A stretch of 64,000 bases of DNA from assembly GCF_003634015.1 (NCBI RefSeq), contig NZ_RBII01000001.1, positions 1,488,001 through 1,552,000 on the forward strand, in the 5' to 3' direction. The translations under genes were made by a program, and so were the position numbers. Of this stretch, positions 1,844 through 54,138 are shown piece by piece (within the stretch, counting starts at the first letter, position 1; the number at the start of each line of letters is the position of its first letter). The notes below the pieces were generated by a model that made no database searches, was not told the DNA's origin, and saw nothing but the letters and a program-made list of their open reading frames with translations. The stretch comes from Litorimonas taeanensis (GTDB lineage Bacteria; Pseudomonadota; Alphaproteobacteria; Caulobacterales; Maricaulaceae).

Positions 1844-1987
1844 GAACCTTCAATTCGCAGTGACTGACCAGCAAAGAAGGGCATGTCTGTATAGAACCGT
1901 TGGGTCTTTGCAACCCCTTACATAACTATACGATTTAAATTGTTTTGGCTCATAATTAGGCGATAAGATAAAACCTACGAGCCTATC

Positions 1988-3190
1988 TCAGGCGGAAAGT
2001 TCAAGCCTTTCATCCGTATAGACTTTTTCAAAGAGAGATAGAAAGGTTCGATTCCAACTGTAGTTTTTCAAAACATGTTCTCGGGCATTCTTTCCGATGT
2101 CACTGATTTGTTCAGAACGCCAAAGTCTTTCAATGGCCAAGGCCATGGCTTTTGCGTCCCCTACAGGCCCTAAATGACCAAGGGTACTCGGAACGCGCTC
2201 AATCATAGCCCCTGCCTTAACACCTATGACAGGCAATCCAGAGGCTTGCGCCTCTATAATTGAAATCCCAAAGGTTTCATGCGCCATAGCGGAAACATAA
2301 ATATCACTAGACGCCAGAAGTTTAGCGAGTGTTTCCCGCTCTCGCACAAAGCCTGTGAAGGTCACGGACTTACCTTGAGACCGCTTCATAAGGGCCTCTT
2401 TTAAATTACCGTCTCCAATCATAACAAGGTGTGCATTCATCGTGCATGGAAGCGACATAAATGCTTCTAGCACGACATTGGCTTGCTTTTCCTTATCTAA
2501 TCGGCCCGCATAGACCAGAATGGGAGACCCTTTTAATTCACGGCGCCAAGCCTCATCTGCCTTATCAGGTGAAAAGACCTGCGTATCCGTCCCCAAGGAT
2601 AGCCTATGAACATAGCCTACACCTAAACCTGACAGCCGTTCGGCCATATCGTCGTTTAACGCAAAAACTCTGTCGAACTGACCATATAATTTTGACGCAT
2701 AATTATAGGCCTTCGCTTTTAAATGGCTCGCTTGTTTAGCGCCAATAAATTTACGGCTCAGAGTTTCAACATAGACAGTTGGAAAATCTGTATGATAGGC
2801 CGCGACGAGAAGTGTCTGCGGATGGTCGCGGCGATAGGCGATTGCTGCCCACGGTAAGTTATAAGCATCATGACATTCTATTACATCAGGGCATTGTGAC
2901 CTTAAGGCGCGTATGACTGATTTTGACCGTATCAAGAGTCTGTAATTCGGGCTTCCCGGCACTCGCGGCGATGCAATCTCAATTGTAACATGTCGCCCCT
3001 GCCTTGTAACGCGATCAATAGGGCCAGGAATAATGAGAACATGTTTATGATGACTATTAGCCTCAATATATTTGCGTTTTTCTGTTAAATAGGTACGCAC
3101 GCCGCCGCCCATTTCAGAGTAAGACTGCGTTAAATCACAAAAGGTCATGACATTTTTTTGCGCGCGAATTTTGCTATAGAGCCTCTCCAT
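1988..3190 (-). CDS. GT4-type glycosyltransferase
   Basis: 400-residue retaining glycosyltransferase with the GT-B fold. Visible motifs: the N-terminal glycine-rich nucleotide-sugar loop MGGGVRTYL (about 27-35), LVYAGRLDKEKQ (about 225-236) opening the C-terminal Rossmann domain, IGDGNLKEAL, and the E-x7-E signature HETFGISIIEAQASG with Glu305 and Glu313. It is cytoplasmic or membrane-peripheral with no transmembrane segment. It is transcribed divergently from the second glycosyltransferase at 3366, with a palindrome between them, so it probably belongs to the same envelope lipid or glycan pathway. Acceptor and sugar donor cannot be read from sequence. A downstream Met15 is an alternative start; the longer form keeps the protein near the usual family length. 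Confidence 0.88.
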   Translation of the reverse strand: MERLYSKIRAQKNVMTFCDLTQSYSEMGGGVRTYLTEKRKYIEANSHHKHVLIIPGPIDRVTRQGRHVTIEIASPRVPGSPNYRLLIRSKSVIRALRSQCPDVIECHDAYNLPWAAIAYRRDHPQTLLVAAYHTDFPTVYVETLSRKFIGAKQASHLKAKAYNYASKLYGQFDRVFALNDDMAERLSGLGVGYVHRLSLGTDTQVFSPDKADEAWRRELKGSPILVYAGRLDKEKQANVVLEAFMSLPCTMNAHLVMIGDGNLKEALMKRSQGKSVTFTGFVRERETLAKLLASSDIYVSAMAHETFGISIIEAQASGLPVIGVKAGAMIERVPSTLGHLGPVGDAKAMALAIERLWRSEQISDIGKNAREHVLKNYSWNRTFLSLFEKVYTDERLELSA

Positions 3191-3268
3191 ACGCAGCAGA
3201 ACTAAGTGAGTTTCTTGATGCTTTTATGTCCGTTACATCAAAAAAATGTCGTCAAATAAAAATGCAAA

Positions 3269-3295
3269 TGTCATATTTTATCAAAAAATATGACA
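3269..3295. promoter_or_regulatory. Perfect 11+11 bp palindrome between divergent glycosyltransferase genes
   Basis: Arms TGTCATATTTT (3269-3279) and AAAATATGACA (3285-3295) are exact reverse complements around a 5-nt spacer. The site lies 79 nt from the minus-strand GT start (3190) and 71 nt from the plus-strand GT start (3366), which suits an operator serving both promoters. The TGTCAT ends resemble one half of a Pho box, but the second half does not match the direct-repeat form, so assignment to PhoB is only a guess. The regulator is unknown. Confidence 0.55.
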
Positions 3296-3365
3296 CCGAA
3301 TCCCGCCAGAGAGACGCCGATATGCAGTAGTGTTGCATGCGTCACGGATTAGGGAATATTAAGAG

Positions 3366-4571
3366 ATGTCATCAAATCTAAGGATAGCCCTTTTCTCAGG
3401 TAATTATAATTATCAAGCTGATGGCGCCAATAAAGCACTAAATAAATTAGTGGCCTTTCTTGAAAGCCGAGCCGTTGAAGTCCGGGTCTTTTCTCCTACC
3501 TCACCGCATGCAGCCTTTGAGGCAGCTGGTCAGATTACGTCCGTGCCCTCTATTCCTTTACCAGGACGCGGCGAATATCGCGTTGGTTTTTCACTAAACA
3601 AAAACCTACGTCAGCAGATTAAATCCTTTAACCCTCAACTGTTTCACCTTTCAGCCCCCGATATTTTAGGGCATTCTGCTCTCAACTTTTCCAAAGCCTT
3701 AGGTATTCCCGCCATTGCCTCATTTCACACTCGTTTTGATACTTATTTTAAATATTATAAATTAGGCTGGGTGGAGCCATATTGCCGCAAAAAAATGGCG
3801 CAATTTTATGAACGATGCGCCCAAGTTTATGTCCCAAGTCATTCAATCGGGCGGGTATTACAGGATGACGGTATATTAGGCTCTAATATGCGAATTTGGA
3901 GTCGCGGGATTGAACGTCATAAATTCAGCCCAAAATTTCGTGACATGGACTGGCGACGCAAAAATGGGATTGAAGATAGCGATGTGGTTCTAAGCTTTGT
4001 CGGACGGCTCGTGCGTGAAAAGGGATTGGACGTCTATGCCGATTTAATTGACTCCCTCACCGCCCGTGGCCTGCCTGTCAAACCTTTGATTGTTGGCGAC
4101 GGCCCTGAATTTGAAAAAATGAAAACCCGTTTACCTCACGCTGTAATGACTGGTCACGTTTCGGGTGAAGACCTTTCTCGTGCTTATGCAAGCTCTGACA
4201 TTTTCATTAATCCAAGCCTGACAGAAACTTTTGGCAATGTAACATTAGAAGCGATGGCTTCAGGCGTTCCCACAATATGTTTGAACGCAACGGGCAGTGT
4301 AGATCTAGTAGATCACGGCATAACAGGTTGGCTTGCTAATTCAGATAAAGAGCCGGCTTGGATCGAAAAAACAATAGGACTTGTGAAGGATAAAGACGCC
4401 CGCATTCAGATGGGCCGTATGGGCCGTTTGAAAAGTGCGGATTATGACTGGAACACTATCATGCAAGGCCTATTAGATGATTATAGGCAGGTTATTTCTC
4501 AGTCTCGTGCCTATCAGTTTGAAGAAAACACGCCCCTCAATAACCGTACACTTTCGGCCCATGCTTCCTAA
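3366..4571 (+). CDS. GT4-type glycosyltransferase, likely glycolipid-forming
   Basis: 401-residue GT-B glycosyltransferase. Motifs: LFSGNYNYQADGANKAL at the N-terminus, ASFHTRFDTYFKYY (about 118-131) as in lipid-linked hexosyl/mannosyltransferases of the MgtA/SqdX type, FVGRLVREKG (211-220), IVGDGPEFE, and the E-x7-E motif TETFGNVTLEAMASG with Glu287 and Glu295. The ATG at 3366 follows AAGAG closely. It is the first gene of an operon whose next members overlap it and each other (membrane protein, MMPL exporter, DUF2141, glycerophosphodiesterase). That context favours making a glycosylated lipid at the inner membrane. The sugar is not determinable. Confidence 0.88.
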   Translation: MSSNLRIALFSGNYNYQADGANKALNKLVAFLESRAVEVRVFSPTSPHAAFEAAGQITSVPSIPLPGRGEYRVGFSLNKNLRQQIKSFNPQLFHLSAPDILGHSALNFSKALGIPAIASFHTRFDTYFKYYKLGWVEPYCRKKMAQFYERCAQVYVPSHSIGRVLQDDGILGSNMRIWSRGIERHKFSPKFRDMDWRRKNGIEDSDVVLSFVGRLVREKGLDVYADLIDSLTARGLPVKPLIVGDGPEFEKMKTRLPHAVMTGHVSGEDLSRAYASSDIFINPSLTETFGNVTLEAMASGVPTICLNATGSVDLVDHGITGWLANSDKEPAWIEKTIGLVKDKDARIQMGRMGRLKSADYDWNTIMQGLLDDYRQVISQSRAYQFEENTPLNNRTLSAHAS

Positions 4572-5562
4572 TTCTGTGAACACCCCTCTACAGGGTTTCA
4601 GAGCTTTTTTTACGCGCCTTATTGATAAGCAAAAGATGGGCGATAAGCGCCTTAAACAAGCCTTATCAATAATACGCTGGCTTGCACTCGCCGCCATTTT
4701 GACATTTCTAATCTATAGGCTGAGTAAAATTGGTTGGAACAGCCTATATGAATCGCGCCCCACATCGGTTTTATTTTACTTGATATCGGTTCTGATGTTC
4801 ATGGTCATGCCAATCGTAGATAAAATTAATTATTTCATCATGACTGGCCACAATATCCCCGAAGGGATAAAGGTTTTTTCCCGCAAGCAAGTTTTTAATG
4901 AAGCCATTGTGAGCTATGCGGGCGAAACCTATCTATGCCCTAAATTGGCGGCCCTACCTGGCCATGATACGCGTAAGGCCCTAATTGCCATAAAAGATAA
5001 CACGCTTATCTCGGCCTTAGTTTCTAACACATGGACTCTTGTTCTTATTCTTTGTGTGTGGTGGGTCGGAAGAAGCGATATCCTGAATGAAATTTGGAAT
5101 CTCTCGCCAATACTCAATGGTGTTTTTGGTGCTTTTTGCTGCTTGCTCTATTTAGTATCTATCGTCTTTTTCAGAAAATTTATGAAACGGGCATTTCGCG
5201 AAATCTGGCGCGTTGCGGCCATACATGGCGTGCGCATCATTATATTAGCCGCTCTGCAGATTGCGCAATGGAAGAGTGCTTTGCCATCTGAAGAGATATC
5301 ATTTTGGGTTATGTTTTTAGCCGTTCAAACCTTGGTTAAACGCGTCCCTATAAATGGTGACCTTATGTTCCTCAGCGTCGCCTTGCTCCTTTCAGGGTTT
5401 TTGAATGGTGATGGCAACACTGTAACGGCTATGTTAGTTGCCGCGGCAGCCATGAATCAGATAGTTCAATTTGCGGCTTTTCTTTTAACCTCTGATGTTA
5501 AATCTAAATCGCGTGAATCTCGGCCGCACTATCCATTGGCAGAGCACGCTGCAGCCGAATGA
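4561..5562 (+). CDS. Polytopic inner-membrane protein in the lipid operon
   Basis: About 333 residues with roughly seven to eight hydrophobic segments (for example LALAAILTFLIYRL, VLFYLISVLMFMVMPIV, LVLILCVWWVG, MLVAAAAMNQIVQFAAFLL). I do not recognise a defined family with certainty. It loosely recalls the HpnL/UPF0104 type of membrane protein that accompanies HpnN-like exporters in hopanoid operons. I chose the ATG at 4561, which overlaps the glycosyltransferase stop by 11 nt; an upstream in-frame ATG at 4477 would overlap by 95 nt, and one at 4636 would shorten the protein. Its stop overlaps the next start in an ATGA, implying translational coupling with the MMPL gene. Confidence 0.75.
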   Translation: MLPNSVNTPLQGFRAFFTRLIDKQKMGDKRLKQALSIIRWLALAAILTFLIYRLSKIGWNSLYESRPTSVLFYLISVLMFMVMPIVDKINYFIMTGHNIPEGIKVFSRKQVFNEAIVSYAGETYLCPKLAALPGHDTRKALIAIKDNTLISALVSNTWTLVLILCVWWVGRSDILNEIWNLSPILNGVFGAFCCLLYLVSIVFFRKFMKRAFREIWRVAAIHGVRIIILAALQIAQWKSALPSEEISFWVMFLAVQTLVKRVPINGDLMFLSVALLLSGFLNGDGNTVTAMLVAAAAMNQIVQFAAFLLTSDVKSKSRESRPHYPLAEHAAAE

Positions 5563-8057
5563 AATGGACGGTACTAAATAAGGCCGCCACCCGTTGGGCT
5601 GGCTGTATTTCTCGCCGTGCAGGTCTTATTTGTATGGCGAGCCTAATAATAACAATGCTGGCTTTTCAGCATATGAAAACCCTCAATGTTTCCACCCAAA
5701 TCAACGCCCTCATGCCTGAAGGTGCAAGGAGCGTTCGGACCTTGAATAAGGCGCTTGAAAAAACTGGGAGCTTTGCTGCCATTCAAATTGTCGCCAATGC
5801 AAACAGCCCTGACGCAGTTTTGGCGCAATTAGGTGCCATTAAAAAGCAAATCGATACCTATGATTGGGTCGGCTCCAGTCAATATTATGAGGACATTGAG
5901 GTCCTTGAAAATCATAAATTACTCTATCTCAGCCTTGAAGAATTGCTAGAGTTAGAGGCCGAAATCAATCAGGCCTACCCCACACTTATTGCGAAAAACA
6001 TTGGTGCTTTTTTCGGAGCCTCAGTCCGTTACACAGAACGCGGAGCCGGCCTAACGGGAGAGTCTACATCTCAGATAGACCCTGACATGCTAGAGGCCTT
6101 TAAGAGCATAACAGATACATCTAAATCTAATAGCAAACGATATTTTACGTCTGACGATGGGTTAACGGGCGTCCTTATCGTTTGGCCCAAAGCAGGGCAA
6201 GATTCGCTATTGGATGCAAAGCGTATGGTCGATGATAGCTACCGTTTAATTGACAGGCTTAATACAACCCCAGAGGATAAAGTTGCGCTAGGGGTTGGCG
6301 GACGTATTGCAAGCCAAGTCGCTCAATTTGAATCGATCACCCGTGATTTAAAATACGGACTTATAAGCGCTATTGGCCTCATCATTTTGATGCTCTTATT
6401 TGCCTATCGAAGCTTCATGGCCATTCCCATTATATTGATACCGCTTGGCTGCGGAATCATTATCACTTTGGGATTAACGGCCATCATTATTGGAAATTTA
6501 AACCTTATTACGGTTTTTCTTACGCTTATCCTTTTTGGTTTAGGCATTGATTTTGCCATACACAACTTCAGCCGGTACCAAGAAGAACGACGTAAAGGTC
6601 ACTCCCAAGAGAGAGCGGTCCAAATCATTATTCATGATACAGGTGCGGCGTCATTGCTTGCGGCTACGACCACAGCGCTCGCATTTTTTGCCCTAATCTT
6701 CACAGAGTTTAGAGCCTTTTCAGAATTTGGAATTATTGCCGGCATAGGCATACTTATAATCTGCCTATCCATGTACACGCTTCAACCTGCCCTTATTGTT
6801 CTCGCGGATAGGATAGGTTGGACAATTAATCCTAGATCAAAAAAACAAAAGTTATTTCGGTATCGATGGGGCTTTAATCCATTACGTTACCGCCTGCCAA
6901 TTTTAACCGCTGTCATAATCACGGCTGTTTCAGCGGCCTATTTCGCCCCCAAAATCAAGTTTGAAACAGATACAAAAAAGCTCGAAGCACAAATGCCAGC
7001 ACGACATGTCACCGCTACCGAACAAATACAAAAAGTGATAAGAACAGGCAATTCACGGGCCATTATAGTGGCAGAAAACTACGACGACCTCGTAAAAATT
7101 GATGAATATTTCAAACATAAGATAAAAGAAGATGACGCAAGCCCGACGATAAAATCTGTTTCTAGCTTAATTGATTTCATCCCTAACAAAGCCAGCCAAT
7201 TAGAACGGCTTGCGATAATTAAACGTCTTGCCAAAAGCGCCTATAATTTACGCGTTTTCGATCCGGAAACATATGAATCTAGTTTGAAATTTTTAACAAT
7301 AGAAGCCTTAAACATTGCTGACTTACCGCCGGGGCTACGACGTACCTATTTAGGGCAGTCTACGGGATCTCAACAAAATGATTTTGAAGATAGAGATACA
7401 GACTATCTTGTTTATGTTGATAATGCCGTAAATCTTGACGACGCGCGAAATGCCAAAGCTTTCTCGGATGATGTCGCGCAATTCACGATAGATGGTCAAA
7501 ATCATTATGCCGCTTCCGAGAGTTTCATTTTAGTGGAAATGCTTGGCCTCATGAAAGCCGATGCCATAAAAGCTATTTTACTCGTGAGTGTAACAACGAG
7601 TTTTGTGGTTTTTATCTTTCTAAGAAATTTTTGGGCGACTCTTATCGTCTTGGCCCCAACCTTGATTGGCCTTGCTGCAACTGTGGCGATAATGGGGGCA
7701 TTCGGCCCCGCTTTGTCCATTATGAATATGGTAATTTTACCATCGCTCATCGGTATATCCGTTGATAACGGTATTCACATTTTCCACCGCTTTGAGAGTG
7801 AAGGCCCTGACGCAGATATTTTAGGCATTATGTCGACTACGGGAAGAGCCTCAGTCTTAACGACGCTAACCACCCTTATCGGGTTTGGGGGTATGATTAC
7901 CGCGTCAATGGCGGGACTGCGTTCCCTCGCCTTATTGGCTATTATCGGCTTCCTTGCCTGCTTGATTACTACAGGGTTTGTTTTACCAATCCTGTTAGAA
8001 TTCTACCAAAAACACTTTCAAAGAAAACGCCTTCAACCTCTGGGGTCGGCCTTATGA
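5559..8057 (+). CDS. RND/MMPL-family lipid exporter (HpnN-like)
   Basis: 832-residue RND-superfamily transporter of the MMPL/HpnN class. One N-terminal membrane helix is followed by a periplasmic loop, a cluster of about five helices (around residues 265-430), a second helix near the domain boundary, a second periplasmic loop and a second cluster at the C-terminus. FGLGIDFAIHNFSRYQEE and IGISVDNGIHIFHRFE are the paired G-x-D membrane motifs of proton-driven members. The family moves hydrophobic substrates such as hopanoids, glycolipids or fatty acids toward the outer membrane. The ATGA overlap with the preceding gene and the overlap with the next gene place it in one operon, and its likely cargo is the product of the upstream glycosyltransferase (inference). 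Confidence 0.87.
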   Translation: MKWTVLNKAATRWAGCISRRAGLICMASLIITMLAFQHMKTLNVSTQINALMPEGARSVRTLNKALEKTGSFAAIQIVANANSPDAVLAQLGAIKKQIDTYDWVGSSQYYEDIEVLENHKLLYLSLEELLELEAEINQAYPTLIAKNIGAFFGASVRYTERGAGLTGESTSQIDPDMLEAFKSITDTSKSNSKRYFTSDDGLTGVLIVWPKAGQDSLLDAKRMVDDSYRLIDRLNTTPEDKVALGVGGRIASQVAQFESITRDLKYGLISAIGLIILMLLFAYRSFMAIPIILIPLGCGIIITLGLTAIIIGNLNLITVFLTLILFGLGIDFAIHNFSRYQEERRKGHSQERAVQIIIHDTGAASLLAATTTALAFFALIFTEFRAFSEFGIIAGIGILIICLSMYTLQPALIVLADRIGWTINPRSKKQKLFRYRWGFNPLRYRLPILTAVIITAVSAAYFAPKIKFETDTKKLEAQMPARHVTATEQIQKVIRTGNSRAIIVAENYDDLVKIDEYFKHKIKEDDASPTIKSVSSLIDFIPNKASQLERLAIIKRLAKSAYNLRVFDPETYESSLKFLTIEALNIADLPPGLRRTYLGQSTGSQQNDFEDRDTDYLVYVDNAVNLDDARNAKAFSDDVAQFTIDGQNHYAASESFILVEMLGLMKADAIKAILLVSVTTSFVVFIFLRNFWATLIVLAPTLIGLAATVAIMGAFGPALSIMNMVILPSLIGISVDNGIHIFHRFESEGPDADILGIMSTTGRASVLTTLTTLIGFGGMITASMAGLRSLALLAIIGFLACLITTGFVLPILLEFYQKHFQRKRLQPLGSAL

Positions 8058-8776
8058 AACGGATTCTTACCGCCATTATTGTCTGCTTAGCAATTGCGAC
8101 TGGATCGAGGACGGCATTTGCTCAATTTAACGGGAAAGCTTACTCAGAACTCGAAGTCATTTTGTATGACGCAGAAACAATTGAACGCATAAATAAACCA
8201 AAAACGCCGCCGCTCCCAATTACGCCTTCCCCAGTTGCGCCTTCCGTTACAGCACCAAGCGTCCTTAATATTCAGCCACCACCTCCTCCAATTTACCCGC
8301 GTGATCTTAGCCCGCGATACACAATGATAGAAAAAGGGGTTCCCATTATAATCGACCCGCAACCCTGCGAGCCGAGCAAACCTGACCTTGCAATTACCAT
8401 AGAAAATGTTGAAAATTCAAAAGGGTTTATTGTGGCCGACCTTCACGATGACAATGAAGAGAATTTTTTGAATTCAGACAAGGTTGTCCTCAGAATACGC
8501 GCCACAGCCCAAGCAGGTCGTACATATTTCTGCCTCCCCTTACCATCGCCCGGCGAATATGCCGTAGGTATATACCATGATGAAAACGACAATCATAAAT
8601 TCGATAAAGGGCTTTTGAAAATTCCCAAAGAACGCTTTGGCATGTCAAATAATCCACCCTTCGGCCTTAAAGCACCGGATTACTCCGAAAGTGCTTTCAC
8701 GGTTCCTGAAACCGGCACTGAAATCACCATACAGCTATTTTCATCTGGTGACATTTTGAAAGGATCTAAACGATGA
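8054..8776 (+). CDS. DUF2141 exported protein
   Basis: 240 residues. An N-terminal signal peptide (AIIVCLAIATGSRTAFAQ) precedes a proline-rich stretch (PPLPITPSP, QPPPPPIYP) and a C-terminal DUF2141 domain from about residue 110. The domain carries the family hallmarks GEYAVGIYHDENDNHKFD and IPKERFGMSNNPP. DUF2141 proteins are small periplasmic beta-proteins of unknown function. The proline-rich linker may span part of the periplasm. It starts inside the 3' end of the MMPL gene and its own end overlaps the GDPD start, so it is cotranslated with a lipid exporter and a lipid-head-group hydrolase. That suggests an accessory role in lipid handling, not shown by sequence alone. Confidence 0.85.
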   Translation: MKRILTAIIVCLAIATGSRTAFAQFNGKAYSELEVILYDAETIERINKPKTPPLPITPSPVAPSVTAPSVLNIQPPPPPIYPRDLSPRYTMIEKGVPIIIDPQPCEPSKPDLAITIENVENSKGFIVADLHDDNEENFLNSDKVVLRIRATAQAGRTYFCLPLPSPGEYAVGIYHDENDNHKFDKGLLKIPKERFGMSNNPPFGLKAPDYSESAFTVPETGTEITIQLFSSGDILKGSKR

Positions 8777-9762
8777 GTTTATCCCGCAGCACGACATCGT
8801 TTATAATGTTAATGGAAGCCGCAGGGTGGAATATAAATGCCGCCCCCAATCTTCACAGATTTTCCGAGGAAGACTGGCAAGACGCCTCTAAACGTCTGGG
8901 GCCAAAGGGTGCATGGCAAGTGTTTCACCCTCAAAAAATAGTGGCTGTCGGTCATCGCGGAGCAAAACATTTCGCACCTGAAAATACGATTTCAGCGCAT
9001 GAAACCGCCTATCATATGGGCGCGCGGGCGATTGAATTTGATGTCCGCTGCACAAAGGACGGTCATTTCATTATCATTCATGACAAAAAGGTCGAACGCA
9101 CCACTAATGGTACCGGCCGAGTCAAAGATCTTACCCTTGCAGAGATTAAAGCCCTGAAAATTACCTCAATAAAGGGCTCACAATTTGAAGGTGAGACCAT
9201 TCCGACCCTTCGCGAGGCCCTCAGAAATGTCAAAGGTCGCTTTGCTGTCGATATAGATTTTAAGGGCGGCCCTAAAAACTCTGCGGCTATATTAGAGGAT
9301 ATCCTTATTTCCGAAGGATTTATGCAAGACGATGCGCCGCTTGTAACCATATTCTCTCGTCGTCAGCATTTCGATATGCTCAAATCACTGAGTAAAAATT
9401 TCGCTTTTCGTCCGCATTACCTGTCAGAGCAAAGGACTGTAGAATGGACCCAACATCACCCTATCAATATTATGGGTCTGCGACGCTTATCTTTTTCTCC
9501 CAAAGCGGCGGCTGTCATCCGCCGTCAAGGCGTACGGCTTTTTTCAAATGTGATGGGCCCATATGACAACATAATGGGCTTTGACGATGCAATTCGGGCG
9601 GGTTCTCAGTTCATTCAAACAGATTATCTCGACCAACTCGTGCCATACTTAGAAAAGCGCGGCTTACTTGAAACACGGGTTCTGGGCCGAGACTTTATGC
9701 CGCTGCCATCCAATGTACCTGAAAGCGTTTCACCGGCCCTGACATCATCTAGCGTGAATTAA
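8773..9762 (+). CDS. Glycerophosphodiester phosphodiesterase family protein
   Basis: 329 residues with a GDPD TIM-barrel domain beginning about residue 57. Catalytic and metal motifs visible: His61-Arg62-Gly, PENT at 69-72, Glu88 and Asp90 in IEFDVRCTKDG, and His103-Asp104. The family hydrolyses glycerophosphodiesters to glycerol-3-phosphate and an alcohol. No signal peptide is evident, so it is probably cytoplasmic; the first 55 residues are an extension of unknown role. It is the last gene of the overlapping operon started at 3366 (4-nt overlap with DUF2141). Such enzymes recycle head groups during phospholipid turnover, which fits a lipid-remodelling locus. Confidence 0.92.
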   Translation: MSLSRSTTSFIMLMEAAGWNINAAPNLHRFSEEDWQDASKRLGPKGAWQVFHPQKIVAVGHRGAKHFAPENTISAHETAYHMGARAIEFDVRCTKDGHFIIIHDKKVERTTNGTGRVKDLTLAEIKALKITSIKGSQFEGETIPTLREALRNVKGRFAVDIDFKGGPKNSAAILEDILISEGFMQDDAPLVTIFSRRQHFDMLKSLSKNFAFRPHYLSEQRTVEWTQHHPINIMGLRRLSFSPKAAAVIRRQGVRLFSNVMGPYDNIMGFDDAIRAGSQFIQTDYLDQLVPYLEKRGLLETRVLGRDFMPLPSNVPESVSPALTSSSVN

Positions 9763-9826
9763 AACGAGCTGATGCGTTTGTCAGTCCTCTCTTGGTTTTT
9801 GGGCTTAAATACGATAGTTCGAGCCT

Positions 9827-10846
9827 ATGACAGACCTCCCCTCCCTCATTCGCGCCTTACCTAAAGCCGAGCTTCATTTACACATTGAGGGTAGTCTTGA
9901 ACCCGAACAGATGTTTGAATTGGCGGCAAGAAACAATGTAGCCCTGCCTTATGACAGCGTTGAAGATATTCGGGCCGCCTATCGTTTTAATAATCTGCAA
10001 GAATTTTTAGATATTTATTATCAAGGCATGTCTGTTTTGCTGACGAAGCAAGACTTTCATGATTTGACTTATGCCTACCTAAAACGAGTTCATGCAGATA
10101 ATTGCCGCCATGTTGAGATTTTTTTCGATCCGCAAGGTCATACAGAACGCGGCGTTGCATTTTCAGATGCCATTGAAGGTATTTTTGATGGGCTCGAACA
10201 AGGCAAGAAAGACTTTGGCATTTCTTCTCACCTCATTCTTTCATTCCTTCGTCATCTTTCAGAAGAAGAGGCTTTTGAAACTCTGGAGCAGGCAGAGCCT
10301 TATATTGATAGAATTTTAGCTGTGGGACTGGACTCATCTGAACTCGGCCACCCACCCTCAAAGTTTGAACGTGTCTACGCTAAGGCCCGCGAAAAAGGCC
10401 TTAAGAGTTTTGCTCACGCAGGAGAAGAAGGCCCGCCAGAATATGTCTATGAAGCCCTTGACCTTTTGAAGGTTGACCGCATTGACCATGGGAACCGCGC
10501 CCTAGAGGACGATGCCTTAGTTGAACGCCTTGTGGCTGAAAATAAATATTTAACTGTCTGTCCGCTTTCTAATCTAAAACTATGTGTGGTTGATGACCTT
10601 AAAAATCATCCCTTGAAAACCATGCTCAATAAAGGACTAAAAGCAACTGTGAATTCAGACGACCCATCCTATTTTGGAGGGTATTTAAATGATAATTACT
10701 TGCGAACAGCAGAGGCACTACACTTAACAAAAGACGATATAGTAACGCTCGTAAAAAATGGATTTGACGGCGCTTATTTAACAGCTGAACGCAAGGCTGA
10801 ATTAATGCATGAATTCAACCAAGTCATTGCCAGTCACAACACATAA
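9827..10846 (+). CDS. Adenine deaminase (adenosine-deaminase-like amidohydrolase)
   Basis: 339-residue amidohydrolase of the ADA-like COG1816 family. Zinc and catalytic residues are in place: His17-x-His19, His197 and Glu200 in FAHAGEEGPP, His221 in RIDHGNRA, and Asp278-Asp279 in VNSDDPSYFGGY. The segment GLDSSELGHPPSKF, in place of the GLDLAGDE of true adenosine deaminases, is characteristic of the subgroup converting adenine to hypoxanthine plus ammonia. I therefore prefer adenine deaminase; the generic annotation would be add. It is cytosolic purine salvage. A phytase-like gene follows after 20 nt and may share its transcript. Confidence 0.87.
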   Translation: MTDLPSLIRALPKAELHLHIEGSLEPEQMFELAARNNVALPYDSVEDIRAAYRFNNLQEFLDIYYQGMSVLLTKQDFHDLTYAYLKRVHADNCRHVEIFFDPQGHTERGVAFSDAIEGIFDGLEQGKKDFGISSHLILSFLRHLSEEEAFETLEQAEPYIDRILAVGLDSSELGHPPSKFERVYAKAREKGLKSFAHAGEEGPPEYVYEALDLLKVDRIDHGNRALEDDALVERLVAENKYLTVCPLSNLKLCVVDDLKNHPLKTMLNKGLKATVNSDDPSYFGGYLNDNYLRTAEALHLTKDDIVTLVKNGFDGAYLTAERKAELMHEFNQVIASHNT

Positions 10847-10866
10847 TTTTCTGCCTAGAGGACAAT

Positions 10867-11889
10867 ATGCCACTCCGCATTTTGAAAATGCTTTCAATAT
10901 CTATGACGGCGCTCATAATCAGCACGCACCCCGTGGTCGCAGATGACACGGCTGAATACCTTGACCAAATAAAGCAAAAATCTTGCGCTAAAAAGTCAGA
11001 CTCTTTTCCGTTCGCATCCCTAGACATAACGGCAACACCTGTAGCCTTGGGCGATGAAGCCGAGATAAAAGCTACATTACCGCATAATGTGAAATTTCTT
11101 AATGGATGGCATTTAACGGCGCCAGACTCTCGTTTTGGCGGGCTGTCTGGCATAGATCGTCTCCCCAATGGAGACTTAATGGCTGTTTCTGACCAAGGAA
11201 CGATTTTTGTTATTGGGCTAACAGATAACGCCCCAAATGGCCGCGGGGCTATGACGCCTCTCTTAGATCATCGCGGTCAGCAAGTTGGGCGAAAGATGGA
11301 TTCGGATTCTGAAGGCCTTGTCTATCATGACGGACTTGTTTTTATTAGTTTCGAACGCGACCACCGCGTCCTAGCCTATGACTTTTTTGGCTGTAAATCT
11401 GCCGCGCGGGGTATTAAAATCCTAGACTTTCCCCGCAAGATTTCTGGCAAAAAAATACCAAATAATAGCGGCGCAGAAGCATTGGATATAAGTACGGATG
11501 GCCATTTGATTTCTGGTTTCGAATTTGAATTAGAGGGCAAAGCGCCCATTGTGACAATAGCTTTGTCAGCCTTGGCGAATACGGACAAACTCCCAAAAAA
11601 TTCGATTAGCTTCAAACCCGTCGACGAACCCTACTCTCTGGTTGGCTTGTCTAAATCAGCGGCTCTTCTTCGGACATATGACCCTAAAACGGGCAATCGA
11701 AACATTATCCAAGTCGACAAAGGTCAAACGGAATTTACGTTACAACCCCCACTGGCCGTGGATAATTTTGAAGGCATTACGGAAGTAACAACCCCAGAGG
11801 GGCAACGTCTTATATATATTATTTCCGATGATAATTTTTCTGGCCGGCAACGCACATTATTACATGTGTTTGAGATAACTGACGAATAG
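10867..11889 (+). CDS. Exported esterase-like activity of phytase family protein
   Basis: 340 residues. A signal peptide (MSMTALIISTHPVVAD region) precedes a beta-propeller-like domain of the 'esterase-like activity of phytase' type. Supporting segments are FGGLSGIDRLPNGDLMAVSDQG, DSDSEGLVYHDG, NNSGAEALDIS and DNFEGITEV, the repeated G/EGI-D/E blade signatures of that family (PF13449). The substrate is uncertain; members hydrolyse phosphate esters or are uncharacterised. A good GAGGA ribosome site sits before the ATG. It lies 20 nt after adenine deaminase and converges with the DUF2155 gene, the two stops being 3 nt apart. Confidence 0.8.
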   Translation: MPLRILKMLSISMTALIISTHPVVADDTAEYLDQIKQKSCAKKSDSFPFASLDITATPVALGDEAEIKATLPHNVKFLNGWHLTAPDSRFGGLSGIDRLPNGDLMAVSDQGTIFVIGLTDNAPNGRGAMTPLLDHRGQQVGRKMDSDSEGLVYHDGLVFISFERDHRVLAYDFFGCKSAARGIKILDFPRKISGKKIPNNSGAEALDISTDGHLISGFEFELEGKAPIVTIALSALANTDKLPKNSISFKPVDEPYSLVGLSKSAALLRTYDPKTGNRNIIQVDKGQTEFTLQPPLAVDNFEGITEVTTPEGQRLIYIISDDNFSGRQRTLLHVFEITDE

Positions 11890-11892
11890 AGA

Positions 11893-12345
11893 TTATCGAC
11901 GTAACTCTGATGTTTCCGTTCTGGCTTTGGGCACTCTGCAATCAATAACCCAGACATCATAAACACGATGGTCGAGAGCGCTTATAGCGGGTTTTGACGC
12001 GAACATCCAACCTGAAAAAACGGTTTGATCTATATCGGCCGTCTCGCCCTTACCATTAAGGCGCGCATCTTTAATTTGCAAAAAGGCATAGGTTTCAGGA
12101 ATTTCTTCTGGTGGTTTCTTTTCGCAATGCTGCGCTGTAATCGTCAGACTACCGTAGGTAAGAGTTTCTCCTATTTTCACAGTATAATCCTGAGTGGTAG
12201 CCGTCACCTTATCCAAAGTCCGCAAAACGACAGAGGTCCCGACGAGATTACGGCGGGTTTGAGTGGATTGGCTATCCCCAATCTGTGCCGAGACGGGCAC
12301 AGAAAATGTGAAAGCTAAGAGTGAAAGCGAAAACGCTTTAAGCAT
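11893..12345 (-). CDS. DUF2155 exported protein
   Basis: About 150 residues from the ATG at 12345. This start gives a clean signal peptide (MLKAFSLSLLAFTFSVPVSAQ) and overlaps the upstream stop by 8 nt. An earlier in-frame start at 12396 would lie wholly inside the neighbouring gene and bury the signal peptide. The mature part contains the DUF2155 core: VGTSVVLRTLDKVTA, LTITAQHCEKKPPEE, FSGWMFASKPAISALDHRVYDVWV and a second Cys near the end, likely pairing with the first. Its function is unknown; it is a conserved alphaproteobacterial periplasmic protein usually encoded beside the NDUFA12-type complex I subunit, as here. Confidence 0.88.
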   Translation of the reverse strand: MLKAFSLSLLAFTFSVPVSAQIGDSQSTQTRRNLVGTSVVLRTLDKVTATTQDYTVKIGETLTYGSLTITAQHCEKKPPEEIPETYAFLQIKDARLNGKGETADIDQTVFSGWMFASKPAISALDHRVYDVWVIDCRVPKARTETSELRR

Positions 12346-12736
12346 CAGGTGTCCACGCTTCGTAATCGGCTGCCACTTTATCGCGAACGCCGCCACGATC
12401 TAAGCTACCCTTGGGTTTATAGGCATGAACCGTACCCGTTAGATTAGGCACATGGTCCTTTTCCCAAGCATGGGGAACATAACCGTCTTCTGTCGGAGGT
12501 AATTCACTCGTGTGATTAAGCCAACCCTGCCACCCTGGAGGAATGCGAGAAGCATCAGCATAACCGTCATAAGTCACCCAGCGGCGCTTACGCCCTTCAT
12601 AGGTTGCTTTTTTCTCTTCATAATAGGTATTGCCATAAGCATCTTCAGCAATTTTTGTGCCTCGGCGACCGATTTCTAGATTCGTGCCGAATGTGGAGCC
12701 GTTCCACCATGTAAAAATGCGCTTAATAAAAGACAT
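12338..12736 (-). CDS. NADH:ubiquinone oxidoreductase NDUFA12-family subunit
   Basis: 132-residue soluble accessory subunit of respiratory complex I, homologous to mitochondrial NDUFA12/B17.2. Recognisable segments: GTNLEIGRRGTKIAEDAYGNTYYE, RRWVTYDGYADASRIPPGWQGWLNH and a C-terminal YKPKGSLDRGG. The family is nearly confined to alphaproteobacteria and mitochondria and stabilises the peripheral arm. The nuo operon itself is not in this window; the gene stands apart, coupled only to DUF2155 downstream. This separation from nuo is usual in the class. Confidence 0.92.
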   Translation of the reverse strand: MSFIKRIFTWWNGSTFGTNLEIGRRGTKIAEDAYGNTYYEEKKATYEGRKRRWVTYDGYADASRIPPGWQGWLNHTSELPPTEDGYVPHAWEKDHVPNLTGTVHAYKPKGSLDRGGVRDKVAADYEAWTPDA

Positions 12737-12957
12737 AAACCGCCCATATATTGTTGTGTCGAGGTCACAAATGACCCGAACATTTTAAAGGCTTATGCCC
12801 CTGACACGGCCAGAGGTAAAGCCGAGATGTGACCGAAATATGTTCTAGATATTCTTCGGGTCAAAATTGTGCTTTCTATACCACAAAATGAATGATTCTA
12901 CAGAACCTTACAAAATTTTTACTCTACCTTGCCCATGACCAAGCCTATAACAGAGAC

Positions 12958-13866
12958 ATGAAACATATTCCGATGACATCTTTGGCGGCTTTTGCCGCCT
13001 TTGCGCTCTTTGCGCCAACATCACAGGCTCAAATTCGGGTTGAATCCCGAATCCACGCTTCATCTGGAGAATGCGCACAATGTGACCTGTCCAATAAGCG
13101 TATGAACGGTGTAAAACTGAAAGATTCAAATTTTGCAGGGGCTTTGTTTAATAATTCTAACCTGTCCGGCGGACAAATTGATGGTTCAAACTTAACTGGC
13201 GCTCACTTTCGAAAAGCGCTGCTTTACCGAGTTCATGGCGACAAGGTGATGATGGAGTCTGCAGTCCTAGAAGATGCGACCATGACCGAAGCAAAGGTCA
13301 CAAATTCTATTCTGCGTTCAGCAAATTTACTCCGCGCAGACCTTTCTCGCGCCCATTTCGAGGGGAATGATTTCACGGCCTCTAATTTGACGTCAGTAAA
13401 AGCCCCGTCTGTCAATTTTACAGGATCAAATTTCAGCGACGCGCAGCTCTATCATGTGAACCTTCGCGAAGCTGTTCTTGATGAGGCCTCATTCAAAGAT
13501 GTTAGCTTTGGTTTTGCCACGCTTACGGATGCGAGCTTGAAAGGCACAGATTTTTCCGATGCAAAAATGTCAAATGTTCAAGGCTTGAAACAATCGCAAC
13601 TTGACCTAGCCTGCGGTAATGCGATGACAGAATTACCCGATGGCCTATCTATCCCTTATTGCGTGACGGCGGCACATAGCCAAATCGATCATAATCACGA
13701 TGATATGACACCAAAAATGGCGCATATTGCGCGTAGACTTGATCGCGCCATTCGGGATGTAGAACTTCTCCTTGATGCAACGCCGCCAAACAATCGACCT
13801 ATGAAGCGTAAACTCCAAAGCATTCACTCTGATTTGGTGCAGTCCAAGGATGCATTAGAAAAATAA
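12958..13866 (+). CDS. Exported pentapeptide-repeat protein
   Basis: About 302 residues from the ATG at 12958, which gives a signal peptide (PMTSLAAFAAFALFAPTSQAQ). An upstream in-frame start at 12892 would add 22 residues and mask it. After a Cys pair (GECAQCDLSNKRM) come about 15 A(N/D)LxX-type pentapeptides (SNLSGG, SNLTGA, ANLLRADLSRAHF, TDFSDA), predicted to form a right-handed quadrilateral beta-helix. ACGN and SIPYC supply further Cys residues, and a helical C-terminal tail follows (HIARRLDRAIRDVELLLDA). The role is unknown: a periplasmic scaffold with likely disulfides. It ends just before a bidirectional terminator facing aspS. Confidence 0.85.
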   Translation: MKHIPMTSLAAFAAFALFAPTSQAQIRVESRIHASSGECAQCDLSNKRMNGVKLKDSNFAGALFNNSNLSGGQIDGSNLTGAHFRKALLYRVHGDKVMMESAVLEDATMTEAKVTNSILRSANLLRADLSRAHFEGNDFTASNLTSVKAPSVNFTGSNFSDAQLYHVNLREAVLDEASFKDVSFGFATLTDASLKGTDFSDAKMSNVQGLKQSQLDLACGNAMTELPDGLSIPYCVTAAHSQIDHNHDDMTPKMAHIARRLDRAIRDVELLLDATPPNNRPMKRKLQSIHSDLVQSKDALEK

Positions 13867-13883
13867 ACCGAAAATCATATATA

Positions 13884-13915
13884 AAAAAAGCCGCTCTTTA
13901 GCGGCTTTTTTATTA
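13884..13915. terminator. Bidirectional rho-independent terminator
   Basis: Stem AGCCGC/GCGGCT around loop TCTTTA, flanked by an A-run on the left and a T-run on the right. It can therefore stop both the pentapeptide-repeat gene (+) and aspS (-), which converge here. Confidence 0.9.
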
Positions 13916-13932
13916 TCGAGTGACGGGTCGCT

Positions 13933-15756
13933 CTATTTTTGATCAACAACAGGAACAAGCTTCAAGTTTAATTCCTTCAGCTGCGCGTTATCGGCTTCAC
14001 CTGGGGCGTTCATCATTAGGTCCTGAGCTTGACCGTTCATGGGGAACAAGATGACGTCGCGAATAGTGTTTACGCCAGCAAGCAACATTACAATGCGGTC
14101 GACACCGGGCGCGATACCACCATGAGGCGGCGCGCCATATTTAAACGCGTTAATCATGCCGGCGAATTTGTCCTCGACCACTTCTGGACCATAGCCTGCC
14201 ATCTCAAAGGCTTTATACATGATATCAGGTTTATGGTTACGAATAGCCCCGGATGAGAGCTCTACGCCGTTACAGACGATATCATATTGATAGGCCAGAA
14301 TATCGAGCTGTTTTTCGACCGTATCCGCAGCTTCAAGCACTTCCATCCCGCCTTGCGGCATAGAGAATGGATTATGCGAGAAATCGACCTTCTTATTATC
14401 TTCGTCCCATTCATACATTGGGAAGTCGACAATCCAGCAAAATTTAAAGCCTTCAGATTCATCAATCAGGTCGAGGTCAGCAGCAACTTTGTTACGGGCC
14501 GCGCCAGCCAATTTATAGGCCGCGTCTTTTTTACCCGCAGAGAAGAAAATACCGTCGCCAGCACCAAGTCCCATTTTTTCTAGCAAGGCAGAAAGATGTG
14601 CAGGTTCGAAATTCTTCAAGACGGGGTCTTGAGAATCAACACCCCCGCCCTCTGCTTCTTTTAATCGAGCATAGCCGAGACCTGGCATCTGCATTTCTTT
14701 CTTCGCCCATTTATCCATATTATCAAAGAATTTACGCGACTGGTTCGCAGCGGCCTGCGGCGCAGGGATCGCGATAACTTTCCCGCCGCCCTTAGTGATT
14801 TTCGCAAAAATGCCAAAGCCCGTCTTGGACTCGTCAGTAAAGAATTCTGAAACATCCGTCAGTTCAAAAGGAATACGAAGATCTGGTTTGTCAGAACCAT
14901 ATTTTTCCATTGATTCCTTATAAGGAATACGTGGGAATGGTGTTTGTACTTTGCGGCCATCGGCAAATTCTTCGAACACGCCAGCCATAACAGGCTCGAT
15001 AGCTTGGAAAACGTCCTCTTGAGTGACAAAACTCATTTCAACATCAAGCTGATAAAACTCACCCGGTGAACGGTCTGCGCGTGCATCCTCGTCGCGGAAA
15101 CAAGGCGCGATTTGGAAATAACGGTCAAAGCCCGCCACCATGATAAGCTGCTTAAACTGCTGCGGGGCTTGTGGAAGCGCGTAAAACTTACCCGGATTCA
15201 GACGAGATGGAACAAGGAAGTCACGCGCGCCCTCTGGTGAAGACGCCGTCAAAATTGGCGTTTGAAACTCTGTGAAACCTTGCTCAATCATACGGCGACG
15301 TAGCGAATTAATCACCTGTCCACGCATGATGATATTTTTATGCAGAGTCTCGCGGCGAAGGTCTAAATAACGGTGCTTGAGACGAATATCCTCAGGATAA
15401 TCTTGCTCACCGAAAACAGGCAAAGGCAAGCTATCAGCTTGGCTTTCTATATTGAACGTATCAACGCGAATTTCGACTTCGCCAGTTGGAATTTCTTTGT
15501 TTACCGCTTCGCTGTCGCGCGCCAAAACTTCGCCTGTAATCGTGATGACAGATTCAGATGGGCAGCGTTTAGCCGCTTCGTAAAATTCGGCGATAGGATA
15601 AACCACGACTTGGGTGATACCATAATGATCACGAAGGTCGATGAATAGCGCATTGGCATGTTCACGTTTGCGGTGAACCCAGCCTGAGAGTTTTACGGTT
15701 TCGCCGACATGGCTTCCGCGAAGTTCGCCGCATGTGTGGCTACGATAAGCGTGCAT
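13933..15756 (-). CDS. aspS: Aspartyl-tRNA synthetase
   Basis: 607-residue class II aminoacyl-tRNA synthetase of the long bacterial type. It has an N-terminal OB-fold anticodon domain ([26 protein letters not shown]), motif 2 ([20 protein letters not shown]), the bacterial GAD insertion, and motif 3 near the end ([14 protein letters not shown]). It charges tRNA-Asp with aspartate in the cytosol; whether it is discriminating or also charges tRNA-Asn cannot be settled here. The ATG at 15756 is preceded by GGAG. A TTGACA promoter candidate lies about 100 nt upstream. Confidence 0.97.
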
Positions 15757-16071: not shown

Positions 16072-16818
16072 ATGGATAGACAAAAATACCAAAAAATGAT
16101 GCGCGGCGCAGGCCAGCTAGATTATGAAATTTATCTGAATACAGAGAGCTTACTCTCTTGTCAGAAAGAACCTGAAGAGCTCTGTAATCCAGATGAGCTC
16201 CAATTCATGATTGTTCATCAAGTCGAAGAGCTTTGGATGAAGCTCATGGCAACAACCCTGCTTGATATTGATGATGAAATGCAGGCACGTAATAGTTTCA
16301 AAGCACTAACCTTGTTTCGTCGGGTGCAGCTCTGCCAAGAAATGATGACGCAACAATTAGTCTTACTCGAAACAATGTCGCCTAAAGACTATCAAGAGAT
16401 TCGACTTTTACTAGGTAATGGGAGCGGCCAAGAAAGCCCAGGGTTTCGTGTCTTACTCGATATGCCAACGGATCTTTGGCAGACATTCAAAGCCATTTAT
16501 TTAGAGGGCGGACAGCGGACGTTAGAGCAAATATATGATAGCGAATACAGCCATGATGATGCCTATATGATTGCCGAAGCCTTGGCTGAATTTGACGAAC
16601 AATTTCAAAAGTTCCGACATTCTCATATGCAATTGATTTATCGTTCGATAGGGGTTGCCGCAAACTCCCTTAAGGGGCGTCCCGTTGAAATTCTCAACAC
16701 GGGATTACGCCAAAAATTCTTCCCTGAACTATGGCAAGTACGCGCTGATATGACAGACCGTTGGGGCGGAACCTATGGCAAGGTACGCACAAAGCTCGAC
16801 CCCAAAGCAAAGCCTTAA
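16072..16818 (+). CDS. Tryptophan 2,3-dioxygenase family protein (divergent)
   Basis: 248 residues of the heme-dependent TDO fold. Conserved features: LDYEIYLNTESLLSCQ (16-31), DELQFMIVHQVEELWMKL (41-58) with the distal-pocket His49, RRVQLCQEMMTQQLVLLETMSP (83-104), GFR at 124-126, His185 as the expected proximal heme ligand in RHSHMQLIYRSIG, and KFFPELWQVR (215-224). The canonical GTGGS loop that follows the heme His and contacts the tryptophan ammonium is absent; VAANSLKGRPVEIL stands there instead. Classical TDO opens the indole ring to N-formylkynurenine. The substituted loop leaves substrate choice uncertain. The next gene, a kynureninase-like enzyme, starts 4 nt after this stop. Confidence 0.8.
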   Translation: MDRQKYQKMMRGAGQLDYEIYLNTESLLSCQKEPEELCNPDELQFMIVHQVEELWMKLMATTLLDIDDEMQARNSFKALTLFRRVQLCQEMMTQQLVLLETMSPKDYQEIRLLLGNGSGQESPGFRVLLDMPTDLWQTFKAIYLEGGQRTLEQIYDSEYSHDDAYMIAEALAEFDEQFQKFRHSHMQLIYRSIGVAANSLKGRPVEILNTGLRQKFFPELWQVRADMTDRWGGTYGKVRTKLDPKAKP

Positions 16819-16822
16819 GACT

Positions 16823-17923
16823 ATGGATATTCAATCCTATTTCCACGTACCGAATAATTACTTTCTATCTCACAGCGTTGGCTGCTTGCCAAAGACAACA
16901 CAAAGCCGAGTGACTGACGCTTTTTTCTCTCCTTGGCAAAGCGGGGAAAGCTGGACAGAATGGATGCCTTTATTGGAAAACTTCCGAAACAAGCTTGGTT
17001 ATCTACTCGGCACAAAAGCGGCGAATATTTGCCCTCAAACAAATATATCCAGCGCTTTAACGAAAATCCTATACAGCTTACCGTCTGCTTATAAAAAGGG
17101 TACAATCGTCCTCTCAAAGCAGGATTTCCCAACAATTGGTTTTGTTTTAAAACAGGCGGAGCGGAGCGGGTTTACGCTGAAATTCGTTGAAGGAGACCCC
17201 ACTGATATCTCTGGGTGGGCTGATGCAATAGACAGCGACACGTCAATTGTTCACATTACTCATGCCCTATCGAACACTTCTCACCTTCTGCCTGTCAAAT
17301 CCATTTGTACCTTGGCCAAAAAAGTGAATGCCATTTCCATTGTCGACATTGCGCAATCCATTGGCGCAGTGGCCACTCCCCTTGCAGAATGGAATTGTGA
17401 TTTCGCTATGGGGTCTGGCGTGAAATTCCTTTGTGCAGGGCCTGGCGCCTGCTTCCTCTATGCATCAGAGACGATGATAACGCAGTGCGAACCAATTGAT
17501 GTGGGTTGGTTTTCTCATGAAAATCCGTTCGAAATGAATATAGAGAGCTTCCGTTATGCCAATGACGCAATGCGATTTTTCGGCGGTACGCCCTCCCCAT
17601 TACCCATAGTCGCGGCGAATGCAGCGCTGACACTCTGGCAGGAAATTGGGCAAAAAACTGTATATGAGACTATACAAAACCACCTAAATCATCTCACGCG
17701 CTCTTTACCAAATGCGGTAATGATTTCTCCAACAGACCCGGAAAAACGCGGGGCCACCTTAGTTATTAACCCGCAAGACCGCCCCCCCCTTCGCAAAGCG
17801 CTAGAATTAAACGCTATACGCTATGATGAAAGACAGGACGGTTTCCGGTTCTCAGTTCATGGTTATACCCCAGACACGGATGTAAGAACCTTAGCCGACC
17901 TCTTAAACGATGCGCTTGTCTGA
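16823..17923 (+). CDS. Kynureninase-like PLP enzyme (aminotransferase class V fold)
   Basis: 366 residues from the ATG at 16823; an upstream in-frame start at 16775 would overlap the dioxygenase gene. PLP features: Asp175 in SIVDIAQSIGAV and the Schiff-base Lys201 in GSGVKFLCAGPGACFLYA, corresponding to the K-Y-L-N-G-G-P-G region of kynureninases. FFGGTPSPLPIVAANAAL aligns with the R-F-x-x-G-T-P stretch of the family. True kynureninase cleaves (3-hydroxy)kynurenine to (3-hydroxy)anthranilate and alanine; this protein is shorter than the usual 400-plus residues and diverges around the lysine. Its pairing with a TDO-like gene supports a kynurenine-type pathway, yet no formamidase gene is visible nearby. 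Confidence 0.78.
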   Translation: MDIQSYFHVPNNYFLSHSVGCLPKTTQSRVTDAFFSPWQSGESWTEWMPLLENFRNKLGYLLGTKAANICPQTNISSALTKILYSLPSAYKKGTIVLSKQDFPTIGFVLKQAERSGFTLKFVEGDPTDISGWADAIDSDTSIVHITHALSNTSHLLPVKSICTLAKKVNAISIVDIAQSIGAVATPLAEWNCDFAMGSGVKFLCAGPGACFLYASETMITQCEPIDVGWFSHENPFEMNIESFRYANDAMRFFGGTPSPLPIVAANAALTLWQEIGQKTVYETIQNHLNHLTRSLPNAVMISPTDPEKRGATLVINPQDRPPLRKALELNAIRYDERQDGFRFSVHGYTPDTDVRTLADLLNDALV

Positions 17924-53924: not shown

Positions 53925-54138
53925 AGCCCTCAATCGTCTTTCCCTTAAGTCTCTCAAAGATGAAGGAACATGGCTAATAAGTCGTTAAAACCCTCACAAG
54001 AATAAGCCCTTAAACCTATGAAGGCTTTCCCACAGCGCCGCCGTGAGATCCGACCGCGCTCAAGTCATTGTGATGCTCAGAACAGATACACCGCTATTAT
54101 TGCTTTGCCTCTACCGACCAAGGCTCTAAAACCCCCTT

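Follow-up and report, generated by a model that had tools for sequence, protein, structure and literature searches.

Two adjoining genes in a 64,000-nucleotide stretch of Litorimonas taeanensis DNA (the window) encode relatives of tryptophan 2,3-dioxygenase (TDO) and kynureninase. Both products, P0001 and P0002, depart from the signatures of the enzymes that they resemble. This locus raises the question of whether such a pair still degrades tryptophan or has turned to another reaction. An earlier note on this DNA had proposed that a different indole or aryl substrate could be used. In the reading preferred here, which we regard as somewhat probable, the two genes form a substitute kynurenine-pathway module, used in place of classical TDO (KynA) and, in the window genome, also of kynureninase (KynU).

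Two intact genes with altered signatures

The genes for P0001 and P0002 are both intact, and the pair is kept in tens of genomes (Table 1). The likely start of P0002 is an ATG four bases past the P0001 stop, which matches the starts in many relatives; the first-ATG reading frame, from 16775, would encode 382 residues. Purifying selection acts on the pair, with dN values of 0.10–0.16 for P0001 and 0.34–0.43 for P0002 and saturated dS for both. Sequencing error, chance and gene decay were ruled out by the intact genes, the 56–87% identity of P0001 across loci and the dN values. The window neighbours lie outside tryptophan metabolism: an upstream reading frame on the opposite strand was read by eye as aspartyl-tRNA synthetase, and a patatin/NTE-like protein is encoded downstream. 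A PAP2/vanadium chloroperoxidase-like protein is also found in the window (52539-53957, minus strand). Nearest gene relatives place the window genome close to Hirschia and Robiginitomaculum.

Table 1. Positions of the gene pair and its key residues in the window, and of two Robiginitomaculum islands
Feature	Position	Strand	Basis or content
TDO-superfamily heme oxygenase, SLKGR subfamily (P0001), 248 aa	16072..16818	+	PF03301, 89 bits
Distal heme-pocket His49 codon (XcTDO His55)	16216..16218	+	Invariant 81/81; alignment to 2nw7
P0001 codons 107-111, Tyr107/Arg111 (XcTDO carboxylate-binding Tyr113/Arg117)	16390..16404	+	Both invariant 81/81
P0001 codons 116-122, NGSGQES, counterpart of the TDO PSSG/PASG and MarE DATG loop	16417..16437	+	Invariant 81/81; PMC11904535 for loop roles
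Proximal heme ligand His185 codon (XcTDO His240)	16624..16626	+	Invariant 81/81
P0001 codons 199-203, SLKGR loop at the GTGGS place (MarE SLGGR)	16666..16680	+	Alignment; PMC11904535
Kynureninase-like PLP enzyme (P0002), 366 aa	16823..17923	+	PF00266, 93 bits; TIGR01814, 77.7 bits
P0002 codons 197-208, GSGVKFLCAGPG, PLP-lysine site (Lys201); Val200 at the kynureninase Tyr place	17411..17446	+	Clade alignment
P0002 Arg342 codon, counterpart of the kynureninase substrate-carboxylate Arg	17846..17848	+	Clade alignment
Robiginitomaculum MAG island (L146)	1395-14461		Kynureninase, HGGYW hydrolase, salicylyl-CoA 5-hydroxylase-like enzyme
Second Robiginitomaculum island (L145)	6107-15403		Kynureninase, HGGYW hydrolase

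P0001 matches the Pfam TDO family PF03301 above its gathering cut-off (89.1 bits; cut-off 34.9) and falls below the curated cut-off of the NCBIfam TDO equivalog TIGR03036 (123.3 bits; cut-off 390.7). When 84,980 species, each represented by a single genome, were scanned, 136 stretches with a P0001 relative were returned, 80 of which were kept; members of this subfamily were found in Alpha-, Gamma- and Betaproteobacteria and in Acidobacteria. Eight residues that match heme- and tryptophan-binding positions of Xanthomonas campestris TDO (XcTDO) do not vary in the subfamily alignment of 81 sequences: Tyr18, Tyr21, Phe45, His49, Tyr107, Arg111, His185 and Arg191. The key residues of the XcTDO reference used in the alignment and tree agree with the PDB 2nw7 alignment. 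The retention of both the distal and the proximal His, as claimed earlier, is borne out across the subfamily. The GTGGS loop had been described as lacking: the GTGGS motif is indeed absent, but the loop itself is present, unchanged in length, with the sequence SLKGR and Ser199 aligned to Thr254. This loop is conserved in 81/81 sequences, one with Ile for Leu, and Ser199, Lys201, Gly202 and Arg203 are invariant. NGSGQES, Trp136 and His161 are further invariant residues specific to the family. A quick tree with midpoint root resolved the SLKGR group, a sister group of short TDOs that carry a GTxGxP loop and come from Actinomycetota and Vibrio, and the classical TDOs as three single branches; P0001 lies outside the classical branch (SH-aLRT 99). 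Judged by its sequence, P0001 belongs to a distinct, strongly conserved subfamily of the TDO superfamily, for which searches of open-access papers turned up no established name or described function.

The partner protein shows a comparable mixture of kept and replaced residues. P0002 falls below the curated cut-off of the kynureninase equivalog TIGR01814 (246.4), and its best NCBIfam E-value is to SufS. Its sequence profile gives 176 bits to kynureninase 1qz9 versus 115 to a C-S lyase, and the best PDB match of its model (pLDDT 95.4) is the Pseudomonas fluorescens kynureninase (Z 43.4), with the best desulfurase close (Z 41.4). Lys201, the PLP lysine, is kept in 55/55 sequences of the P0002 clade. 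The residue before it is Val, Leu or Ile in all 55, whereas all ten canonical kynureninases, taken from relatives of the window genome, have Tyr there. In kynureninase, this Tyr (Tyr226 of the P. fluorescens enzyme) has an important catalytic role. Arg342 is Arg in each of the 54 clade rows that have a letter there, as it is in the ten canonical enzymes, and Asp175 and Trp229 are likewise kept. Other replacements extend across the clade: Gln178 for the His after the PLP Asp, Ile, Met or Leu at position 105 for the Asp of NFPTD, and Cys for the Asn that follows Lys-x-Leu. The changed Lys-site neighbourhood noticed earlier in P0002 (GSGVKFLCAGPG) is thus real, and the missing Tyr is a trait of the whole clade. 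P0002 lies outside the strongly supported classical kynureninase branch (quick tree, midpoint root), and the phylogenetic comparison that the earlier note had called for places each of the two proteins outside its classical branch, with both below the corresponding equivalog cut-offs.

Tryptophan-pathway genes in the host genomes

None of the 45 subfamily genomes checked had canonical TDO. These comprise 36 searched with TIGR03036 (the window genome and 35 reached through loci), none of which had a match over the cut-off, and nine additional relatives. In a set of 60 relatives, 10 carry an SLKGR gene, 21 carry canonical TDO and none carries both (hypergeometric P = 0.008, kinship ignored). Likewise, the absence of canonical TDO in 35 genomes compares with a class-wide rate of 17% (P = 0.001, kinship ignored). 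Shared ancestry could account for part of this exclusion. A relative of the same genus (G003) has a canonical-type TDO instead, located beside a divergent class-V PLP gene. IDO occurs in only 2/36 subfamily genomes, and the KynB model TIGR03035 exceeds its cut-off in 0/36, versus 6/16 genomes with canonical TDO; on these counts, IDO or KynB encoded elsewhere in the genome was rejected as an explanation.

Orthodox kynureninase scores over the cut-off in 16/36 subfamily genomes, and two more fall just under it. At least 11 hosts carry both this enzyme and a P0002-type partner, which indicates that the partner is not simply redundant. In six of the loci read, orthodox kynureninase immediately adjoins an HGGCW hydrolase of secreted type; in one it lies beside an HGG[FY]W hydrolase and in two near one. 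The best kynurenine-pathway relative of the HGG[FY]W hydrolase among solved structures is the Drosophila kynurenine formamidase (4e11), with a lipase scoring higher, and formamidase activity appears likely from this relationship. Kynureninase adjoins such a hydrolase in two relatives of the window genome (G014, G034). These hosts of orthodox kynureninase would lack a first enzyme for the route if the SLKGR protein did not supply it, assuming that no kynurenine is imported; the orthodox kynureninase could instead be fed by imported kynurenine. In Acidobacteria gp2 and relatives (G468-G472), the SLKGR gene has no adjoining partner and the kynureninase-like proteins reach 130–147 bits, against the cut-off of 246.

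In two Robiginitomaculum genomes, kynureninase and an HGGYW hydrolase share an island with one or more sodium symporters, a TonB receptor and a second class-V PLP enzyme, and no TDO lies within either island (L145, L146). The salicylyl-CoA 5-hydroxylase-like enzyme of L146 scores 1024 bits, just under the cut-off of 1078, and this island is consistent with anthranilate breakdown. Since 3-HAO is absent in 19/20 genomes, the end point of the route is probably anthranilate and not NAD, and NAD synthesis from tryptophan was ruled against on the same count.

It had been remarked earlier that no formamidase adjoins the pair, which is correct, and a search for a distant kynB had been proposed. This search, run across the window genome (99.95% complete), found no PF04199/KynB and no kynureninase besides P0002. 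The sole formamidase candidate is one weak alpha/beta hydrolase with 25% identity, which is not convincing. At the thresholds used, neither type of hydrolase turned up in Hirschia maritima (G440). In these two genomes, either a formamidase escapes recognition or P0002 acts straight on the product of the oxygenase.

Candidate reactions and comparison with known enzymes

In the proposed module, P0001 would bind heme via His185 and L-tryptophan via Tyr107, Arg111 and the SLKGR loop, and would use O2 to open the indole ring, with N-formylkynurenine as the main product. P0002 would act as a kynureninase-type PLP hydrolase; cleaving the C-beta/C-gamma bond of the P0001 product, either as formed or once formate has been lost, it would release L-alanine and (N-formyl)anthranilate. 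That the substrate of P0001 is tryptophan or something closely related is highly probable, and N-formylkynurenine is a reasonably probable main product. In human TDO, the change of GTGGS to SLGGS leaves an enzyme that makes about 95% N-formylkynurenine from L-Trp and about 5% of a monooxygenated product (PMC12312684). This outcome, together with canonical TDO in 0/45 genomes, IDO in 2/36 and orthodox kynureninase in 16/36, often with a formamidase-type hydrolase, makes tryptophan the likeliest substrate and N-formylkynurenine the likeliest main product. It also means that an altered loop alone is no argument for another substrate. On this evidence and the kept pocket residues, the different indole or aryl substrate first proposed is possible and is not favoured. 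Loop swaps do divert some of the product towards monooxygenation (PMC12312684), and the product partition of P0001 may be affected likewise.

The two top PDB matches of the P0001 AlphaFold model (pLDDT 86.9) are MarE and XcTDO. XcTDO (KynA; 2NW7-9; Z 19.6, 31% identity over 209 residues) has the heme His, distal His, carboxylate Tyr/Arg and aromatic pocket residues in common with P0001, which differs in its shorter middle, in SLKGR for GTGGS and NGSGQES for PSSGFQS, and in forming a separate clade. MarE (9CA3, 8VYY; Z 20.8 over 231 residues) is a heme-dependent aromatic oxygenase that forms a 2-oxindole from beta-methyl-tryptophan and carries SLGGR and DATG at the two loop places (PMC11904535). 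Like P0001, it lacks the extra mid-protein TDO helices, and its SLGGR has four of five letters in common with SLKGR, whether by homology or by convergence. However, identity is only 20%, DATG stands against NGSG, and MarE functions in a diketopiperazine pathway; to our knowledge, it has no kynureninase-like partner. The residue comparison with MarE was made via papers and the fold search. On the partner side, P0002 resembles P. fluorescens kynureninase (KynU, 1QZ9) in fold, PLP Lys, Asp175, Trp229 and Arg342, but identity is 23% and the Tyr, His, Asp and Asn site residues are replaced.

The invariant heme, indole and carboxylate pocket residues and the conservation of the pair across bacterial groups favor the kynurenine-pathway module. 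A loop closer to MarE than to TDO, the loss of three kynureninase site residues from P0002 and the lack of a convincing formamidase in the window genome count against it. These same features are accommodated by a MarE-like scheme, in which P0001 would add one oxygen to tryptophan, giving a 2-oxindole or a C3-hydroxy/pyrroloindoline product, and P0002 would perform a retro-aldol cleavage of kynureninase type to alanine and an oxidised indole, for example an isatin-type ketone, with no need of a formamidase. The scheme draws on the nearness of SLKGR to SLGGR, on MarE being the top fold match (tied with XcTDO within about Z 1), on the helices missing from both proteins and on the influence of the loop on mono- versus dioxygenation (PMC12312684), and it fits a catalytic site altered across the P0002 clade and the want of a convincing formamidase in the window genome or Hirschia. 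We nevertheless consider it unlikely, given that the P0001 profile is nearer XcTDO (140 bits) than MarE (70 bits), that many hosts possess an orthodox kynureninase and a formamidase-type hydrolase, and that MarE without ascorbate is itself mainly a dioxygenase, as is the SLGGS variant of TDO (PMC12312684).

The separate clade and the invariant NGSGQES, SLKGR, Trp136 and His161 would also suit a pair with a different substrate, such as some other aryl amino acid or a substituted tryptophan, and the sister short-TDO/PLP pair of Micromonospora has a nitric oxide synthase gene next to it, an arrangement seen in nitro-amino-acid pathways. Yet the tryptophan-pocket residues Tyr18, Tyr21, Phe45, Tyr107 and Arg111 are invariant, and the fact that the gene and canonical TDO exclude each other suggests that both serve one function, which renders such a substrate quite unlikely. 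It would be more improbable still for P0002 to be another class-V PLP enzyme, such as a C-S lyase or transaminase, with the pairing serving a different pathway. This would agree with the Gln after the PLP Asp, the lost kynureninase Tyr and the SufS E-value, but kynureninase ranks first in both profile and fold comparisons, closely so over the desulfurase in fold, and Trp229 and Arg342 are kept.

A formamidase-free route is a tentative possibility: P0001 would form N-formylkynurenine or a monooxygenated tryptophan, from which P0002 would directly release alanine and N-formylanthranilate or an oxidised indole. If true, two genes would replace kynA, kynB and kynU, a new shortcut in the textbook pathway. 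The subfamily also offers a natural experiment on a loop described in recent work as a determinant of one- versus two-oxygen addition in heme-dependent aromatic oxygenases, with an invariant SLKGR in a seemingly catabolic enzyme. In addition, pair genomes are labelled with a 'tryptophan 2,3-dioxygenase family protein' yet fail the curated TDO and kynureninase models, and pathway predictions thus miss tryptophan breakdown in these genomes or assign it without warrant.

Distribution and neighbourhood of the pair

A P0002-type gene lies directly downstream of the P0001-type gene in about 50/81 loci (~60%), and Acidobacteria gp2 and several Robiginitomaculum genomes carry the SLKGR gene with no adjoining partner. 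No further subfamily member was found in an even sample of 385 Alphaproteobacteria, which indicates that the subfamily is patchy and not general. An Lrp/AsnC-type gene occurs in 44 loci, mostly divergent and upstream of the TDO-like gene in the loci read, and is absent from the window. KynR, found in classical kyn operons, is of this type. Past the Lrp/AsnC gene, the neighbours are mostly housekeeping and taxon-specific, and operon extension was set aside as a clue to the pathway. Single-linkage clustering showed that, in Alteromonadaceae and a small number of Alphaproteobacteria, an ATP-grasp gene and RND pump genes recur around the pair; this was not taken as a functional link.

Another short TDO paired with a class-V PLP enzyme is found in Actinomycetota (Micromonospora zamorensis, Nonomuraea), where the PLP gene likewise lies directly downstream. 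This TDO is 37% identical to P0001 and belongs to the sister clade of its group, but its loop reads GTKGTPV or GTQGTPV, Phe occupies the Tyr107 position, and the PLP partner falls in another part of the PLP tree than P0002. On the M. zamorensis plasmid NZ_CP107937.1 (L115, 6352-11925), a nitric oxide synthase oxygenase gene and a globin-domain gene precede the short TDO (GTKGTPV) and the class-V PLP gene, an arrangement that possibly represents a nitro-tryptophan pathway. On a plasmid of Streptomyces sp. NBC_01006 (L116, 10001-11988), a nonribosomal peptide synthetase cluster contains two TDO-family genes next to each other; about 200 residues of the second gene's product precede its TDO match. 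In Parvularculaceae (L067, L068, L073, L076), the pair lies on the same strand as, and downstream of, trpA-accD-folC (read by eye), which suggests a tie to the tryptophan region.
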